Assembly (NCBI GenBank): GCA_009841255.1
Contig: VXMD01000015.1
Location: 1-64,000, forward strand
Reading direction: 5' to 3'
Origin: Candidatus Poribacteria bacterium
GTDB lineage: Bacteria; Poribacteria; WGA-4E; WGA-3G
Length of the DNA stretch: 64,000 nt
Part shown: one piece after another, positions 1-13,896 of the stretch
Position numbering within the stretch: the stretch's first letter is position 1
Layout of the letters: every line of letters starts with the position of its first letter
Made by a program: the position numbers and the translations under genes
The notes under the pieces: model-generated
What the model was told of the DNA's origin: nothing
The model's input: only the letters and a program-made list of their open reading frames with translations
Databases searched by the model: none

Positions 1-1117
1 TCCGCTGTATCTCTGTTTCCAACCTATTTTGAAAAATATCCATCGTATACTCTGTCTGGGCAACGCATCGAGCATTTTTCGACATTTCCTCTCGAAGTTC
101 CTTGGACTCAATGAGCACCTTACAAGAAGTTAAAAGGCTGTACCTATCAATCTGAACACCCCATTTCGTGAGGAAGGTCTTTATTTTAAAACCTGTTTGC
201 TGATGCCGAATAGTATCTTGCAGCCCACCCCAGTCTGTACCAATGACTGGAGTGCCGCAACTCATAGCCTCAACTTGTGTGTACCCAAATTGTTCATCGT
301 GATGCAGAGTGAGATTTATGTAAATGTCAGAGAGGTTATAGAAAAATGGCAACACCTCTTTGTGGAAACTGCCGACCCATTTGATACGCTCCTTTAACAA
401 CGGATGACTTGAACGCAAATCGTCAAAATAAGCAATGAAGTCAGGATCCTTGTATTGAAAATCTCCGAAAGGAATATCCAAAATAGGACCTACAATTAAC
501 AGGTGAAGATTTTTGTATTCTTTAACCAGTTCTTTAAAAATTCTGACGATTGCATGCACGTTTTTCTCAACGGTAACCCGTCCGATGTATGTTAAGACAA
601 TGTCATCCTCAGTGAAACCGAAAAGATCACGGTATTGATTCCTTTCATCTGTGGAGCAAGGCTTAAAAAATTCAGTGTCTATCCCAAACGGGAAGTAAAC
701 CTGACGTGCAGCACTCTTTCTCATAAGAGTCTTGTGAATTTTGGGGTCAGCATGACTCGTGAATACAATCGTGTCGGTGGGACGAAGGTAAGGAAATATC
801 TTTCTAAGCGCAACAGCTCCTCGGGGCAATCCACCCAGATTGAGGTAAAGCATCGGAACCTGAGAACCAATCTCTTCACGTAAAGCAAATAGATTCAGCC
901 CGTATCCAGGGAGAATTAAAGTACAGCGTCTCAGAAACTCGGCACCTACCTCCTTCTTTTTTTGTCGAGAAAGGGAGCGATAATAAGCAGGAAGTAGCTC
1001 AACTTCAAATGAGCGAGAGATTGCTGCTTCCCAATCTGAAAAGATGTCCCCGACACTCGTGCCCGGTGCCTCTGTCATTCGGTGTCTCACAAGTCCTATA
1101 ACGGGTTTAAGTTGCAT
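1..1117 (-). CDS. GT4-family glycosyltransferase, 3' end beyond the window
   Basis: An open frame runs from ATG at 1117 to the left edge without a stop (372 codons seen), so the C-terminus is missing. The C-terminal half reads as a GT-B fold, GT4-like domain: IGRVTVEKN opens the nucleotide-sugar-binding domain, LLIVGPI follows, then an E-x7-E motif (EQFGYTQVE) and the SCGTPVIGTDWGG loop. The start has GAGG 7 nt upstream and overlaps the stop of the PqqD-like gene by 11 bp, so the two are probably co-translated. Being last in a lasso-peptide-type operon, it may glycosylate the product or make a cell-surface glycan; this is inference. Family call is firm, substrate unknown. Confidence 0.85.
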   Translation of the reverse strand, partial: MQLKPVIGLVRHRMTEAPGTSVGDIFSDWEAAISRSFEVELLPAYYRSLSRQKKKEVGAEFLRRCTLILPGYGLNLFALREEIGSQVPMLYLNLGGLPRGAVALRKIFPYLRPTDTIVFTSHADPKIHKTLMRKSAARQVYFPFGIDTEFFKPCSTDERNQYRDLFGFTEDDIVLTYIGRVTVEKNVHAIVRIFKELVKEYKNLHLLIVGPILDIPFGDFQYKDPDFIAYFDDLRSSHPLLKERIKWVGSFHKEVLPFFYNLSDIYINLTLHHDEQFGYTQVEAMSCGTPVIGTDWGGLQDTIRHQQTGFKIKTFLTKWGVQIDRYSLLTSCKVLIESKELREEMSKNARCVAQTEYTMDIFQNRLETEIQR

Positions 1118-1385
1118 TTTTTTCCTCTACCTTTTGTATAAACTTGTGACACTCAAGATGATCTAAAAATTCACAGACATCTTTAGACACTTTCTGCGTG
1201 TCAATTTGATATCGCTCAGCTAGAGTGTCAATGATGTTTTCAGCTGTTTCACCTTTTACAAGTGCTACCCAAATTTGTTTCCCACTACCACCCACAGTGA
1301 AATATAATCCCGTTTCCATATTGGCGAGAACAATTTCACCGTGGACATCCGTATGGGAGACTAACTCGTTAATTTCATATTTCAT
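1107..1385 (-). CDS. PqqD-like RiPP recognition element (lasso B1 type)
   Basis: A 92-aa protein with the PqqD fold: an N-terminal beta region (GEIVLANMETGLYFTVGGSG), the signature around KQIWVALVKGETAENIIDTLAERY, and a final helix (VCEFLDHLECHKFI). In lasso and other RiPP pathways this domain binds the precursor leader and delivers it to the processing enzymes; in lasso systems it is the separate B1 protein. AAGG lies 9 nt upstream of the ATG. It follows the ABC-transporter remnant and overlaps the glycosyltransferase. Together with the B2 peptidase and cyclase upstream it completes the B1/B2/C enzyme set. The order B2-C-(D)-B1 is not the common one. Confidence 0.85.
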   Translation of the reverse strand: MKYEINELVSHTDVHGEIVLANMETGLYFTVGGSGKQIWVALVKGETAENIIDTLAERYQIDTQKVSKDVCEFLDHLECHKFIQKVEEKNAT

Positions 1386-1472
1386 ATAATCAACCTTCAG
1401 TGAACTTATGAATTTATATTCATCACAGTGAATTGTTTGTAGAGTAAGTCGCTTTACGTGCCTCGCGTTGAA

Positions 1473-1709
1473 TTATTCAGAATGCGTTCCTGCCTTCACA
1501 AGTCTACCATCATTGAGAACCAGAATCTTATCCGCGTGCAACGAGAAGAGCAGCATACCTAACGATGTTGCAAGAAACAGTCCACATGTTAATTTCTCAA
1601 TCTGCCTCCAAAGTAACCAAGTGAAACTAAAATAGATAGCAATTGGAAGTGCCAGTACGGACGAATATATACTAATAGCCGAAATACATCTTCCATGTTT
1701 CCCTGTCAC
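1473..1709 (-). pseudogene. ABC exporter remnant with a large internal deletion
   Basis: A 78-codon frame joins two ends of an ABC exporter. Residues about 12-55 form two hydrophobic segments like the first membrane helices. The last 20 or so (ADKILVLNDGRLVKAGTHSE) are the typical end of an ATP-binding domain just after the H-loop. Everything between, including Walker A, signature and Walker B, is missing; a complete half-exporter is about 580 aa. The GTG start overlaps the cyclase stop (GTGA), as expected for the exporter gene (D) of a lasso operon. Export would need another transporter. An assembly error is possible but would have to keep the frame. Confidence 0.75.
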
Positions 1710-3598
1710 TCTCCATATGCCTCATGGAACTGAGGCAAACATGTACGCAACCAAACCTCAACAGACAATGGAGAATCCATAAAAGGAGAGGGATACAGCA
1801 TACTTGAGTCGTCAACGCTTCCTAATTTATATCGCGTCAGTGCTTCTTCCCATTGTTTGAGAGCAACAAATCCCATCTGAGCAATGATGGGATTCCTTCT
1901 CATTTCAGCAAAAGCATCTGCTTCCTTTGTTAAACCTCTTCGACGAAAATGTGAAAAAATAGAACCACCTGTTCTTAATCTAACAGTATCTGGTAAAATT
2001 CCTTCCATCGCTTGCCTCAGGATATACTTTGACCGTTTAGGCTGTTGCTTAAGATGATGCGGGAGTTGAAGGGCAAAATTTATCAATCTTCTGTCCATAA
2101 ATGGATGGTAGGTATGAATCCCAAGGGGCTCGGTAATGTACTTGCCGTATGTAAAAGGACGATCCAAACTATAGCGAATTGCAATTGTGTTAAACTGTGT
2201 AGACAATGGGAAGCCTTGTAAATCACGGTGCTGATCTTTAAAACGGGCTTCAAGATTCGTTCGCAGTAGAAAATCATTGTTTAACCATTGAGGTATTTGA
2301 GGTTCCCACAAATGGTGTCTGTGTTTGATAGGCAGCAAGATATTATCAGAAATAATTTTCCATAACGGTCGCGAATTCAAAGTACTACGTGTTGTAACCT
2401 CCCTCCACGCTCTCATAAATTTACCAGAGCAGACATAATCATAAATATATAGTGGTAGATCAACTAATATATTATCTCCACCGCACCCAGTTAAAGAAAT
2501 AGCAAATCCTCTCTCTGAGGCGAATTTTACGGGATCCCTTGCTATATTCAACCATAATAGCATAGGATTTGGATAGTCAAAATAGGTGTTTTGGTCCCGA
2601 ATACCCTGAAGGTACCAACTCCCTCCCAAAGAAAAATTATGCCAATTTAATCCATAACGTTTCACAACAGATTCTTGATATTCTGTGTCATCAAAACGAG
2701 GTTCACTCGGATCTTGAAAAGAAATAACATCTTTCAGGTGAACGGAGGTATCTCCCTTCTCTGCCAAATGACAGGCAAGTGAAACAATCGATGAGGAATC
2801 AAGCCCACCACTCAAATCGGCAATTACGCGGGAATCAATGTCAAGACACCCCTTCACGCTCGCTGTTAACAAATCGCGGAACTTTTCAATCAAATCGTCA
2901 TCCTTCCGCGTTTCCTTACCATTGTCTTTCCCCCATTCCCACCATTGTGAGAGCTGTAGTGGCTCACCGAGATTTAACCGGAGACTGTACCCGGGGGGTA
3001 CAGATTGCACACCTTTTATAGGTGAATCGTTGGTATGAGCCAGACACCCGTTCCAAGACCATGTAAGTGCCTCTGCCATCCATTCTTCATTGAGAGTCGG
3101 TTTTATGCCACCCAGACAACAGACTTGACGAATTTCAGTTCCCCAACAAAACACATTGGATTTGTAAAAATAGTAAAGGCGTTCTGCCCCTATTGCATCT
3201 CGCGACAGAAATAGACTTTGAGTAACCTCATCCCAAACAGCAAAAGCATAATACCCGATAAGATAGGTAGAGACATCTTCTCCGACAAGATTATAGAGGT
3301 GAAGGGCGAGTTGAGCATCACACGTATCCGTATCCGTAAAGATTCTCCATTGACTCAAAAATCGGACGATTTCGTCCCTATTATGGATGGTTCCAACCCA
3401 GACGATACGTCGTTCCGCTTTTGAACCTCCATCAAGTTGCGTGACAATGGCATGTTGACTTCTACCATCTGCGTGAAAGTAGGCATTCAGGGTAGGACTG
3501 ACTTTCCTGAAGGCACTCCCTAATTTCGTTTTTAAAGCTGTGAAAGCTTGTAATTGTGATGTTGACTCTCGAAAGAGGATACCGGAAATCCTATTCAT
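1706..3598 (-). CDS. Lasso cyclase (asparagine synthase-related)
   Basis: A 630-aa AsnB homologue. Residues 1-200 correspond to the class II glutamine amidotransferase domain but lack the N-terminal catalytic cysteine (it starts MNRIS), so no glutaminase activity is expected. The synthetase domain carries the PPi-loop SGGLDSSSIVSLA and the GCGGDN motif. Lasso cyclases use ATP to activate a side-chain carboxylate and close the macrolactam, and normally lack the N-terminal Cys. I chose ATG 3598, which overlaps the B2 stop (ATGAATAG), over a farther in-frame start that would overlap most of B2. An asparagine synthetase of another pathway is the alternative; the neighbours argue against it. Confidence 0.85.
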   Translation of the reverse strand: MNRISGILFRESTSQLQAFTALKTKLGSAFRKVSPTLNAYFHADGRSQHAIVTQLDGGSKAERRIVWVGTIHNRDEIVRFLSQWRIFTDTDTCDAQLALHLYNLVGEDVSTYLIGYYAFAVWDEVTQSLFLSRDAIGAERLYYFYKSNVFCWGTEIRQVCCLGGIKPTLNEEWMAEALTWSWNGCLAHTNDSPIKGVQSVPPGYSLRLNLGEPLQLSQWWEWGKDNGKETRKDDDLIEKFRDLLTASVKGCLDIDSRVIADLSGGLDSSSIVSLACHLAEKGDTSVHLKDVISFQDPSEPRFDDTEYQESVVKRYGLNWHNFSLGGSWYLQGIRDQNTYFDYPNPMLLWLNIARDPVKFASERGFAISLTGCGGDNILVDLPLYIYDYVCSGKFMRAWREVTTRSTLNSRPLWKIISDNILLPIKHRHHLWEPQIPQWLNNDFLLRTNLEARFKDQHRDLQGFPLSTQFNTIAIRYSLDRPFTYGKYITEPLGIHTYHPFMDRRLINFALQLPHHLKQQPKRSKYILRQAMEGILPDTVRLRTGGSIFSHFRRRGLTKEADAFAEMRRNPIIAQMGFVALKQWEEALTRYKLGSVDDSSMLYPSPFMDSPLSVEVWLRTCLPQFHEAYGE

Positions 3599-3851
3599 AA
3601 TCGTAAGCACTTTTAAGTGAGTAAAGTCCCCTAGCGATTTCTTCATCACCACTGACGACCACCCCGTTGATTTCAACCCAAGCGTGTGTCCTGAATGGAA
3701 AATTGGAAACTCTGATACACACAACAGCCGGGATAGATCTACGACGCAGTAACATTGCAAACGCTAGAGAATCATAGACACAACCAGAATTATAAATCAT
3801 AAACCTTACGGCAAGGTCCACGGGCATTTTTATTTCCTTGATCGTCTTCAC
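3591..3851 (-). CDS. Lasso peptide leader peptidase (B2, transglutaminase-like), short
   Basis: An 86-aa protein with the core of the B2 cysteine protease: GCVYDSLAFAMLLRRRSIPA (catalytic Cys followed by the LLRRR-x-IPA helix) and FRTHAWVEINGVVV (catalytic His). B2 removes the leader from the lasso precursor before cyclisation. Family members are usually about 130-150 aa, so the N-terminal helices are short or lost. The start is GTG at 3851. The same frame continues 18 codons upstream to a single TGA (3908-3906) and beyond that for 41 more codons, so a nonsense mutation in a longer gene is possible. Its stop overlaps the cyclase start. Confidence 0.75.
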   Translation of the reverse strand: MKTIKEIKMPVDLAVRFMIYNSGCVYDSLAFAMLLRRRSIPAVVCIRVSNFPFRTHAWVEINGVVVSGDEEIARGLYSLKSAYDYE

Positions 3852-4042
3852 ATGACTGCCGGGATATGAGGAAAAAGAAGGTGTATCAAAGTACTTCGTA
3901 TCATTTCAAATCTCTCTGAACTTCAGAACAAAAACAGTATGAGAATTCTGATAGAAACTTCTATTATCTTTATATTTCTCCAAACTGATTGGATTGCTTT
4001 CGGATGGCAAACAAGGCGACGTTCTCTTCACGCAATTAGGTA

Positions 4043-4058
4043 AGCAATTCTCGTGCCA
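4043..4058 (-). promoter_or_regulatory. Sigma-54 (RpoN) promoter for the lasso-type operon
   Basis: The minus strand reads TGGCACGAGAATTGCT. This matches the sigma-54 consensus TGGCACG-N4-TTGCW at every conserved base, with 10 nt between the -24 GG (4057-4056) and the -12 GC (4045-4044). Transcription would start near 4032 and run into B2 and the cyclase. The gene just upstream encodes a sigma-54 activator. The match alone could be chance; its place and orientation make it persuasive. Confidence 0.8.
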
Positions 4059-4119
4059 GTGTGAAAAACGACCCTGTTAGCGAATATACTCCTTCTGCAA
4101 TGCGGCAAAATTTTCTCAT

Positions 4120-4159
4120 TCGGCAATTTTTGCCTAACGGATTAGGAAAAATTTGCCGA
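4120..4159. promoter_or_regulatory. Imperfect 18-bp inverted repeat: terminator of the activator gene or activator-binding site
   Basis: The arms begin TCGGCAA and end TTTGCCGA around a CGG centre, with one-base bulges. The TTGCCG core occurs again on the minus strand at about 4106-4101. The hairpin lies 15-55 bp after the activator stop and 60-100 bp upstream of the -24 element. It could therefore end activator transcription or serve as the upstream activating sequence that bacterial enhancer-binding proteins need. There is no clean T-run after it on the minus strand. Confidence 0.5.
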
Positions 4160-4174
4160 GTGTCCAAACCTGAG

Positions 4175-5458
4175 TTACCTCTTAAAGCGATAGTCTCGTA
4201 ATTTGTTCCGTAAGGTGCGCGCACTGATACCTAAAATTTCCGCAGTTTTTGATTGATGCCCGTTCTGCCCCGCTAAAGTCATTAGGATGACCTTCCGCTC
4301 TATCTGCTTCAACGTCAACCCGACGGGGAAGGACATTATCGGGTGCTCTTGGCATTCAGAATCGTCTTCGGGGACGGGCAGGTGCGCGTGGGTTCCATGA
4401 AGTTCTGGCGGCAAGTGTTCCGGTAAAATTATGTCACCTTGGGCCATGAGGATTGCGCGAGTTATGATACTTTTCAACTGTCGGATATTCCCGGGCCAGT
4501 CGTAGCCGTGCAATAACGCAAGGGCCCGTGTAGATATACCGCCCATCTTTTGACCTTGGTATTGGCTTTCCATCTTCAAAAAGTGTTTTGTCAACGCGAG
4601 GATGTCTACCCACCGTTCGCGCAACGCCGGCACAGAGATCTCAAGTGTCTTGAGTCGTTGATAGACATCCTGGCGAAACTTGCCATCTTTAACGTCTTGC
4701 GCGAGGTCACGGTTCGTAGCTGCTACAACGCGGACATCCACCGGAATTCGTGCTGTTCCCCCAACGCGTCTAATTTCGCCTTCCTGAAGCACCCGTAACA
4801 ACTTCGGTTGAAGAGATATGGCGAGTTCCCCAATTTCATCAAGGAACAGTGTGCTTCCGTTTGCCATTTCAAACAGTCCCTTATGTTGCCGGTCCGCGCC
4901 CGTAAATGCTCCTCTTTCATGTCCAAACAGTTCACTTTCCATCAGTTGCTCTGAAATCTCTGCACAGTTGAGGATGATCATCTCTTGCTTTGAACGGCTA
5001 CTGTTTTCGTGCAATGAATGTGCTACCAACTCTTTACCAGTTCCCGTTTCCCCAGAAATAAGGACCGTTGTTGGAGAGTTTGCAAACATTTCAATACTGT
5101 GCAGAACATCAATAGTCTCTACACTCTCCCCAATAATGTTGTTGTAATCGCCCTTCAACATCTCTCTTGCCTGATCCTTTTCTGGTAGTGGTATCTCTCC
5201 TGTTAGGGGATGTAGATTTTCTGTAACCCTAGGGCCTCCGCTGATTTGCTGCTTGGGTACCTGAGGGTCCAATACTATCACATTCGGCACCTCGTCCAGA
5301 ATCTGGCGAAACACATCACTTCCTTTAGAAGCAGTAGAGACTTCATAATTGTGTTGTTCAAGAATATCTCGTAAATTCGCGACTACCTTGAAGTCCTCGC
5401 CAACAATAAGAACGTGGGCATGGTCATTGAAATTATCTGTGTCTGTCTGGATATTCAT
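4175..5458 (-). CDS. NtrC-family sigma-54-dependent response regulator
   Basis: A 427-aa activator. Residues 15-75 form a receiver-like domain (HVLIVGEDF, phospho-acceptor-like Asp in VIVLDPQVP). The AAA+ domain follows with Walker A GETGTGKE, the sigma-54-contacting loop GAFTGAD and Walker B TLFLDEIGEL. The C-terminus is a Fis-type helix-turn-helix (QSKTAEILGISARTLRNKLRDY). It would remodel sigma-54 RNA polymerase at a -24/-12 promoter. The start at 5458 has AAGG 5 nt upstream; the frame is open farther but without a good site. It lies directly upstream of the lasso-type cluster and its sigma-54 promoter, so control of that cluster is the simplest inference. No sensor kinase is in view. Confidence 0.9.
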   Translation of the reverse strand: MNIQTDTDNFNDHAHVLIVGEDFKVVANLRDILEQHNYEVSTASKGSDVFRQILDEVPNVIVLDPQVPKQQISGGPRVTENLHPLTGEIPLPEKDQAREMLKGDYNNIIGESVETIDVLHSIEMFANSPTTVLISGETGTGKELVAHSLHENSSRSKQEMIILNCAEISEQLMESELFGHERGAFTGADRQHKGLFEMANGSTLFLDEIGELAISLQPKLLRVLQEGEIRRVGGTARIPVDVRVVAATNRDLAQDVKDGKFRQDVYQRLKTLEISVPALRERWVDILALTKHFLKMESQYQGQKMGGISTRALALLHGYDWPGNIRQLKSIITRAILMAQGDIILPEHLPPELHGTHAHLPVPEDDSECQEHPIMSFPVGLTLKQIERKVILMTLAGQNGHQSKTAEILGISARTLRNKLRDYRFKR

Positions 5459-12120: not shown

Positions 12121-13150
12121 AAACCGCTTTTAACCTTTCCAACTTCGCGAGTGCCGCACCTGAGTCAATAGATTCTGCGGCAAGTCCGATACCAGCCTCA
12201 AGACTCTCCACTTTCCCGCTCGCAGTAATCGCTGCACCAGCATTTAGTACGACAATATCACGTTTGGGCCCCTTCTCGCCGTTCAGGAGATTGACGATGA
12301 TTTCAGCGTTCTCCTCAGGCGTGCCACCTAAGAGTGCTTCGGGTTCCGCTCTCGGAATGCCGAGTGTTGTGGGATCAAGCGTATAGGTTTTAACAGTGCC
12401 GTTTCGGAGTTCGGAGACGCGTGAGGTCGTCGTCGTTGTGATATCGTCCAGACCGTCATCTCCATGCACGATAAATGCGTGCTGACATCCGAGGTTGTTC
12501 AGGGCATTCGCATGCGCCTCAGTCAGTTCGGGTGCGTAGACACCAATCACCTGTGCCTGCGGTCCCGCTGGATTGGTCAGCGGTGCTATAGCATTGAAAA
12601 TCGTCCGAATCCCGATTTCTCGCCGCGGTCCGATAGCGTATTTCATCGCACCGTGTAGGGTCGGTGCGAATAGAAAACCGATGCCGACCTCATCAATGCA
12701 GCGTCCGACATGTTCCGGACCAATTTCAATATTCACACCCAATGCCATGAGTACGTTCGCGCTGCCGCTCTGTCGCGTTACACCCCGATTGCCGTGCTTT
12801 GCGACTGGTACACCTGCTCCGGCGGTAACAATGGCAGAAGTCGTTGAAATGTTGAAATGGTTTAAACCCGTACCCCCTGTACTACAGGTATCAACAAGTC
12901 GCGGGACCTTCGGCGTAGCCTGCAAGTCAGGCGTGTGACGTGTCGGAACAGGCGTGGCTTTGGCGCGCATGGCACGTGTTGCCCCCGTAAGTTCTTCTAT
13001 CGTCTCACCTTTTAGCCGCAGTGCAGTAAGAAAACAGGCAATTTGAGCGTCTGTCGTCTCACCTTCCATGATCTCGTTCATGGTATCAACCATCTCTGAT
13101 TCGGTTAGGGCGTTACCTGCCATAACCTTCTGAATTGCTTCACGAATCAC
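12110..13150 (-). CDS. trpD: Anthranilate phosphoribosyltransferase
   Basis: A 346-aa enzyme that joins anthranilate to PRPP, the second step of tryptophan synthesis. It shows the PRPP loop DTCSTGGTG, KHGNRGVTRQSGSANVLMALGVNI and the NPAGPQAQVIGVY region, in the usual order and length. The start is GTG, with AGGAGG 8 nt before it. It is not fused to a glutamine amidotransferase. trpC follows on the same strand; trpE, trpG, trpF, trpA and trpB are not in the window, so the pathway is split. Confidence 0.93.
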   Translation of the reverse strand: MIREAIQKVMAGNALTESEMVDTMNEIMEGETTDAQIACFLTALRLKGETIEELTGATRAMRAKATPVPTRHTPDLQATPKVPRLVDTCSTGGTGLNHFNISTTSAIVTAGAGVPVAKHGNRGVTRQSGSANVLMALGVNIEIGPEHVGRCIDEVGIGFLFAPTLHGAMKYAIGPRREIGIRTIFNAIAPLTNPAGPQAQVIGVYAPELTEAHANALNNLGCQHAFIVHGDDGLDDITTTTTSRVSELRNGTVKTYTLDPTTLGIPRAEPEALLGGTPEENAEIIVNLLNGEKGPKRDIVVLNAGAAITASGKVESLEAGIGLAAESIDSGAALAKLERLKAVSNN

Positions 13151-13182: not shown

Positions 13183-13211
13183 ATTATAACAGACACAGAT
13201 ATATTTTTCAA
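13183..13211 (-). promoter_or_regulatory. Housekeeping promoter of trpDC
   Basis: On the minus strand TTGAAA (13211-13206), a 17-bp spacer and TATAAT (13188-13183) lie 33 bp before the trpD start. There is no room for a long attenuator leader between promoter and gene. Confidence 0.75.
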
Positions 13212-13280
13212 GATTGGGCTTCTGTATCTCGGAGCTATTCAACTCCCTTAGGCAAAAATTTGTATTTTTTTTCGATAGGG

Positions 13281-13286
13281 TATAAT
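13281..13286 (+). promoter_or_regulatory. Possible -10 box for the GNAT gene
   Basis: TATAAT at 13281-13286 is perfect, but the -35 region is weak (TTGTAT only 15 bp upstream). It would give a leader of about 125 nt before the acetyltransferase. Confidence 0.4.
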
Positions 13287-13416
13287 ATATCCTTGCCCGA
13301 TAAACAATGGTTTGAGTTAAAAAACAGGCGTATCCTGTAGGAACGACCGGTGCTATAGTCCGTATTCCTATAGGCAGACGCACTTTATAAACAAATCTAC
13401 AAAAAGAGATAAAGAG

Positions 13417-13896
13417 ATGATCCGAAACTATAAACCGAGCGACTTGCAAACGCTTCGGCAGATCACTGCTATCTGTTTTGAAAAAGTGTCCATAGATAAA
13501 AATATTGAAGACCGGTTTGGGTATATCGGCGACCTGGGCTGGGAAGAACGGAAAATGTCCCATATCGATGACGATGCAGCAACTAACCCGGATGGGGTTT
13601 TTGTGGCGGAAGTTGAAGGGGAGATCGCTGGTTACATTACAACCCGACTTAACCGTCCAACACGCATCGGTGGTATTCCGAACCTAGCTGTGTTACCGAA
13701 GTTTCAACGTCGTGGCATCGGTAGGCAACTTATCGAAAAAGCGTTGGCGTATTTGCAGGCAGAAGGGATGCTTTACGCGCGCATTGAAACCTTAGAGCAG
13801 AACCCTATAGGTACGAGCTTTTATCCGGCTATGGGTTTTACTGAAATTGCAAGACAGATTCACTATATTCAACCGCTATCGAAATCGGAGAAATAA
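13417..13896 (+). CDS. GNAT-family N-acetyltransferase
   Basis: A 159-aa GNAT protein that would transfer an acetyl group from acetyl-CoA to an amine. The acceptor region opens with MIRNYKPSDLQTLRQIT; the acetyl-CoA loop is seen as LAVLPKFQRRGIGRQLIEKAL (Q/R-x-x-G-x-G/A), followed by the final motif FYPAMGFTEIAR. An AGAGAT-rich stretch precedes the ATG. It is convergent with the DUF6785 gene 13 bp downstream. Substrate cannot be told. Confidence 0.85.
   Translation: MIRNYKPSDLQTLRQITAICFEKVSIDKNIEDRFGYIGDLGWEERKMSHIDDDAATNPDGVFVAEVEGEIAGYITTRLNRPTRIGGIPNLAVLPKFQRRGIGRQLIEKALAYLQAEGMLYARIETLEQNPIGTSFYPAMGFTEIARQIHYIQPLSKSEK

Follow-up and report, generated by a model that had tools for sequence, protein, structure and literature searches.

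The closest described relatives of the locus considered here are the two-protein (B1/B2) lasso-peptide clusters with a YxxPxL leader (PMC6784204, PMC10368454), with which it shares the PqqD/RRE protein B1, B2, C and the transporter D. From what is known for the family, B1 of an intact cluster would bind the YxxPxL stretch of the precursor's leader, B2 would remove the leader by cleavage two residues past a conserved Thr, C would activate the ring Asp or Glu with ATP and close the ring onto residue 1, and D would export the peptide.

The window, which is the whole 64,000-nucleotide stretch of contig C15 that was analysed, is highly likely to contain the remains of an ordinary cluster of this kind, locally decayed, in a Candidatus Poribacteria-type genome. 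The features of the locus are as follows; C86 is another contig of the same genome, and G017 and G034 are related genomes of the same genus.

2-1126, minus strand: group-1 (family-4-type) glycosyltransferase, 375 codons open, continuing past the contig end (PF00534, 1e-22)
1110-1385, minus strand: B1, PqqD-like leader-recognition protein, 92 aa, open
1473-1696, minus strand: remnant of D, an ABC transporter, ~97 bp of the 5' end joined to 75 bp of the 3' part
1709-3598, minus strand: C, lasso cyclase (asparagine-synthetase-like), 630 aa, open
3594-3851, minus strand: what is still open of B2, the transglutaminase-like leader peptidase; 86 codons, beginning at a GTG
3852-3973, minus strand: broken 5' third of B2, from DNA alignment with the intact B2 genes of C86, G017 and G034
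3906-4031, minus strand: GTG frame of 41 codons that is no gene; the B2 N-terminus (VLKFREI) makes up its 3' end, and it stops at a premature TGA
3986-4177, no strand: spacer without a precursor, single-copy in the genome
4117-4162, no strand: hairpin with a 21-bp stem and a 4-nt loop, directly 3' of the stop of a sigma-54 regulator gene

The original prediction had observed that no lasso precursor is recognisable in 3852-4174, and this holds for both strands. The frames that it named, a 41-codon GTG frame (4031-3906, minus) and an 18-codon ATG frame (start 3904, minus), are present and neither is lasso-like. The longest closed frame of the interval has 43 codons, a length equalled or exceeded in 43% of shuffles, and the frames in general are no longer than those in shuffled sequence. 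A search with a lasso precursor model had been named as a check; the NCBIfam lasso leader model NF033521 has zero matches on contig C15, 3852-4174 included, and two matches above cut-off in this genome on contigs other than C15. The pattern Y..P.[LIVM]...G...T.G is absent from the entire 64 kb window, and no adjacent precursor with a YxxPxL leader, Thr(-2) and Asp or Glu at core positions 7-9 was found within it.

The interval is not, however, the intact slot upstream of B2 for which it had been taken. Its segment 3852-3973 belongs to B2, of which it is the degenerate 5' end, and 4117-4162 is the hairpin, which is probably the terminator of the sigma-54 regulator gene. Part of the seemingly empty precursor slot is therefore the broken end of B2 itself. 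Homology to B2 continues through 3852-3973 into the ribosome-binding region and ends at about 3984-3985, the point at which the homology of the whole lasso block to C86 and G017 also ends. The start codon has become ATA (3973-3971) where C86, G017 and G034 all have ATG, one nucleotide is deleted at about 3929/3930 relative to the same three intact genes, and a TGA lies in frame at 3908-3906. The deletion taken alone could be a sequencing error, as the genome is known only from a single draft assembly. The open part, 3594-3851, keeps in the alignment the Cys, His and Asp that are conserved across the B2 family. It matches NF033537 with an E-value of 6.1e-15 (55.7 bits, cut-off 33), over profile positions 53-122 of 132 only, and PF13471 over positions 38-106 of 117. 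A family match is therefore present, but the 5' third of the gene is unreadable. Judged by the alignment, the 41-codon GTG frame is an accident, its final residues VLKFREI belonging to B2. A search by sequence for a solved B2 structure, for comparison with the truncated form, found none.

A precursor of a new type had been proposed as one explanation of the empty interval. Short frames do exist in 3852-4174, but they are of chance length and have no family match, and the largest of the named frames is partly B2. Nor does the spacer clearly resemble any precursor region or the DNA upstream of related loci: in local alignments of 3976-4177 to six precursor or upstream regions, conducted in search of a precursor remnant, the scores were at or near shuffle level, and the best of them, to the upstream region of G034, was just at the 95% mark of shuffles. 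This genome and a relative of the same genus both have conventional YxxPxL precursors. A new-type precursor encoded in this interval is extremely improbable, and none is needed to account for the locus. The spacer was also considered as a mobile or repeated element, which was rejected because it is single-copy.

The two conventional YxxPxL...T(-2) precursors of this genome are on contigs C86 and C69. The precursor at C86:5293-5403 is METYEKPTLVELGSILALTEGLGMKDDDGCYEGHNNF, with the core GLGMKDDDGCYEGHNNF, and that at C69:30-149 is METYEKPTLVEVGSILQLTAGAFDSGDSEENYTKYIPNNG, with the core GAFDSGDSEENYTKYIPNNG. They score 21-22 bits on NF033521 (cut-off 19), and both have Tyr(-17), Pro(-14), Leu(-12), Thr(-2), Gly1 and acidic residues at core positions 7-9. 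A precursor arrangement like theirs has been described for the lasso family (PMC6784204, PMC10368454), and the spacing from Y(-17) to Thr(-2) in PMC10368454 equals that of both. The first 53 bases of the two contigs, which lie within the precursor leader, are identical, and the assembly therefore broke inside a shared leader. Both contigs begin inside the precursor frame, and the start codon of neither can be fixed. Contig C86 (5.4 kb) contains A, intact B2 and C genes, and a D that is open as far as the contig reaches, but no B1. Between its precursor and B2 (L003:3762-5289) there is about 1.5-1.6 kb of gene debris, which on visual inspection looks transposase-like; three frames of it had no Pfam match and it is single-copy in the genome. 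The assembly is a draft of 87 contigs with an estimated contamination of 3.3%, and a contig as short as C86 could be mis-binned, although the argument for decay also rests on the comparison with B2 of G017 and G034. A second genomic copy of the C86 upstream stretch, sought in order to tie the contig to the genome, was not found.

Three genes of the window locus are open. Its cyclase C is 62% identical to that of C86, contains the motifs SGGLDSSS and GGDN and matches PF00733 (4.3e-30); the best NCBIfam match, NF033535 (1.7e-60), is below the cut-off of that model. B1 matches PF05402, of the PqqD/RRE type, above cut-off (2.4e-13), NF033536 under its cut-off (6.3e-15), and TbiB1 of the PDB (1.2e-10). 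No other PqqD in a lasso context was found in this genome. A PqqD-like gene on contig C42 was set aside, there being no B2 or C match in its 18-kb neighbourhood. The glycosyltransferase is 44% identical (tblastn) to one beside B1 in the related genome G019 and would probably attach a sugar to the peptide. C and the leftover B2 codons each have a pairwise dN/dS of about 0.2, and on that measure the decay therefore looks recent. The G+C content of 41.8% over 1-3990, compared to 48.7% in the rest of the window, suits an acquired block, and the cluster was probably acquired.

The exporter gene D, often present in such clusters, is broken like B2. Just two gene ends are left at 1473-1696, between C and B1, and about 1.5 kb is missing compared to the intact D on contig C7; the NCBIfam MsbA C-terminal model matches the remnant at 0.0009. 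The D on C7 is open from an ATG at L050:7795 to 9555. This orphan transporter is 69% identical to D of C86, and no other lasso gene is present on the 11 kb of C7 that were covered.

In the window locus, B2 is thus without its start codon, an unbroken reading frame and part of the N-terminus, and D consists of two stubs. Since both genes are broken, the locus alone is probably unable to produce and export a lasso peptide, as far as its sequence tells. The original prediction had listed a decayed pathway beside the new precursor type; the damage to B2 and to the transporter gene supports the former, and the latter found no support.

Eighty-three genomes of the class were searched for a C of the window type. 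It was found twice in the window genome, as a remnant in G017 and in a distant form in G019; G034 has a shorter C remnant beside its contig end. In G017 (L043:9376-10204) an intact B2 is followed by a C cut to about 151-154 codons, and in G034 (L044:9136-9745) an intact B2 is followed by a C cut to about 78 codons. Homology to the window begins just before B2 in both genomes, and the DNA upstream differs in each. A search with the leader model gave no precursor match in G017 and a chance-level one only in G034. A scan with the C alignment for named relatives found none, and 80 loci were kept from a scan with the B2 alignment, mostly from Acidobacteria, Streptomyces and Bifidobacterium, with two Poribacteria only.

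The same-clade remnants without precursors in G017 and G034 support decay of the window locus. Its missing precursor fits such decay, and we infer that a precursor formerly adjoined it. The open C, B1 and glycosyltransferase count against decay, however, and part of the gene set may still be in use.

The G019 locus is an open series of glycosyltransferase, B1, B2 and C, with four precursors on the glycosyltransferase side. These stand in tandem (L042:12352-12522, 12981-13142, 13199-13354 and 13605-13751) and have leaders of the KTYEAPRLV type. By the spacing of PMC10368454, all four carry Val or Ile at -2 instead of Thr; Ile or Val at this position is rare and is found in phosphorylated lasso peptides of other groups (PMC10368454). 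Downstream of C (L042:4968-7684) are a second glycosyltransferase, of family 28 type, a weakly redoxin-like protein and a protein similar to arginine methyltransferases (PRMT_C), all of them possible additional tailoring enzymes.

Two other accounts of the locus have to be weighed. A conventional precursor may follow the glycosyltransferase, past the left edge of the contig, as the original prediction had allowed, with C69 (or C86) as a possible continuation. Such a precursor is conceivable but unlikely, and it would be compatible with the decay of B2 and D. The left edge of the window is indeed the end of contig C15, the G019 precursors are on the glycosyltransferase side, and C69 and C86, which start at an assembly break in their common 53-bp leader, could be oriented to continue C15. 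The G019 precursors are, however, 5' of the glycosyltransferase, whereas here the precursor would be 3' of it. A join of C15 to another contig through its end sequence was also sought, but no overlap was found; the sequence is shared with no other contig, so that no join is indicated.

Alternatively, the window locus might be one half of a split pathway, reduced but in use, its B1 and glycosyltransferase (perhaps also C) serving the C86 and C69 precursors in trans, with B2 and the transporter coming from elsewhere. B1 is open and is the sole lasso-context PqqD match in the genome, C86 has A, B2, C and D yet no B1 on its 5.4 kb, an intact orphan D is present on C7, and the dN/dS of about 0.2 for C and the leftover B2 codons is in keeping with use. 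But C86 ends inside D and its own B1 may simply be unassembled, and dN/dS is a pairwise average, blind to a recent loss of constraint. We regard this sharing of machinery as doubtful. It is quite improbable that the scattered partial clusters of the window, C86, C69 and C7 together form one split lasso pathway, in which a single B1 and a single glycosyltransferase would serve divergent cores that have a leader in common.

On the reading preferred here, local decay of an ordinary cluster, the locus no longer counts as an apparent example of a new kind of precursor. It also serves as a warning: where a precursor slot seems empty, the damaged 5' end of an adjacent gene may be what fills it. Better targets are the conventional precursors of this genome and of its relative, and the results point to repeated loss of lasso clusters within the genus.

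The C86 and C69 precursors share their leader motif and spacing with the B1/B2 YxxPxL clusters (PMC6784204, PMC10368454). Unlike those clusters, the window locus has a broken B2 and D, no adjoining precursor and a glycosyltransferase beside B1, and its C falls below the NCBIfam lasso cyclase cut-off. The highly modified lasso clusters with group transferases from sponge microbiomes (PMC9426513) likewise have a glycosyl-transferring enzyme beside lasso genes, and the phylum is common in sponges; gene cluster families are given there in bulk only, and the window locus could be matched to none of them. The G019 locus (Candidatus Poribacteria isolate jk18x27bins.53, L042/L075) resembles the window in its glycosyltransferase, B1, B2 and C and in the 44% identity of the glycosyltransferase. 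It differs in being open throughout, in its B2 (about 43% identical) and C (about 25% identical), and in its four tandem precursors with Val or Ile for Thr at -2.
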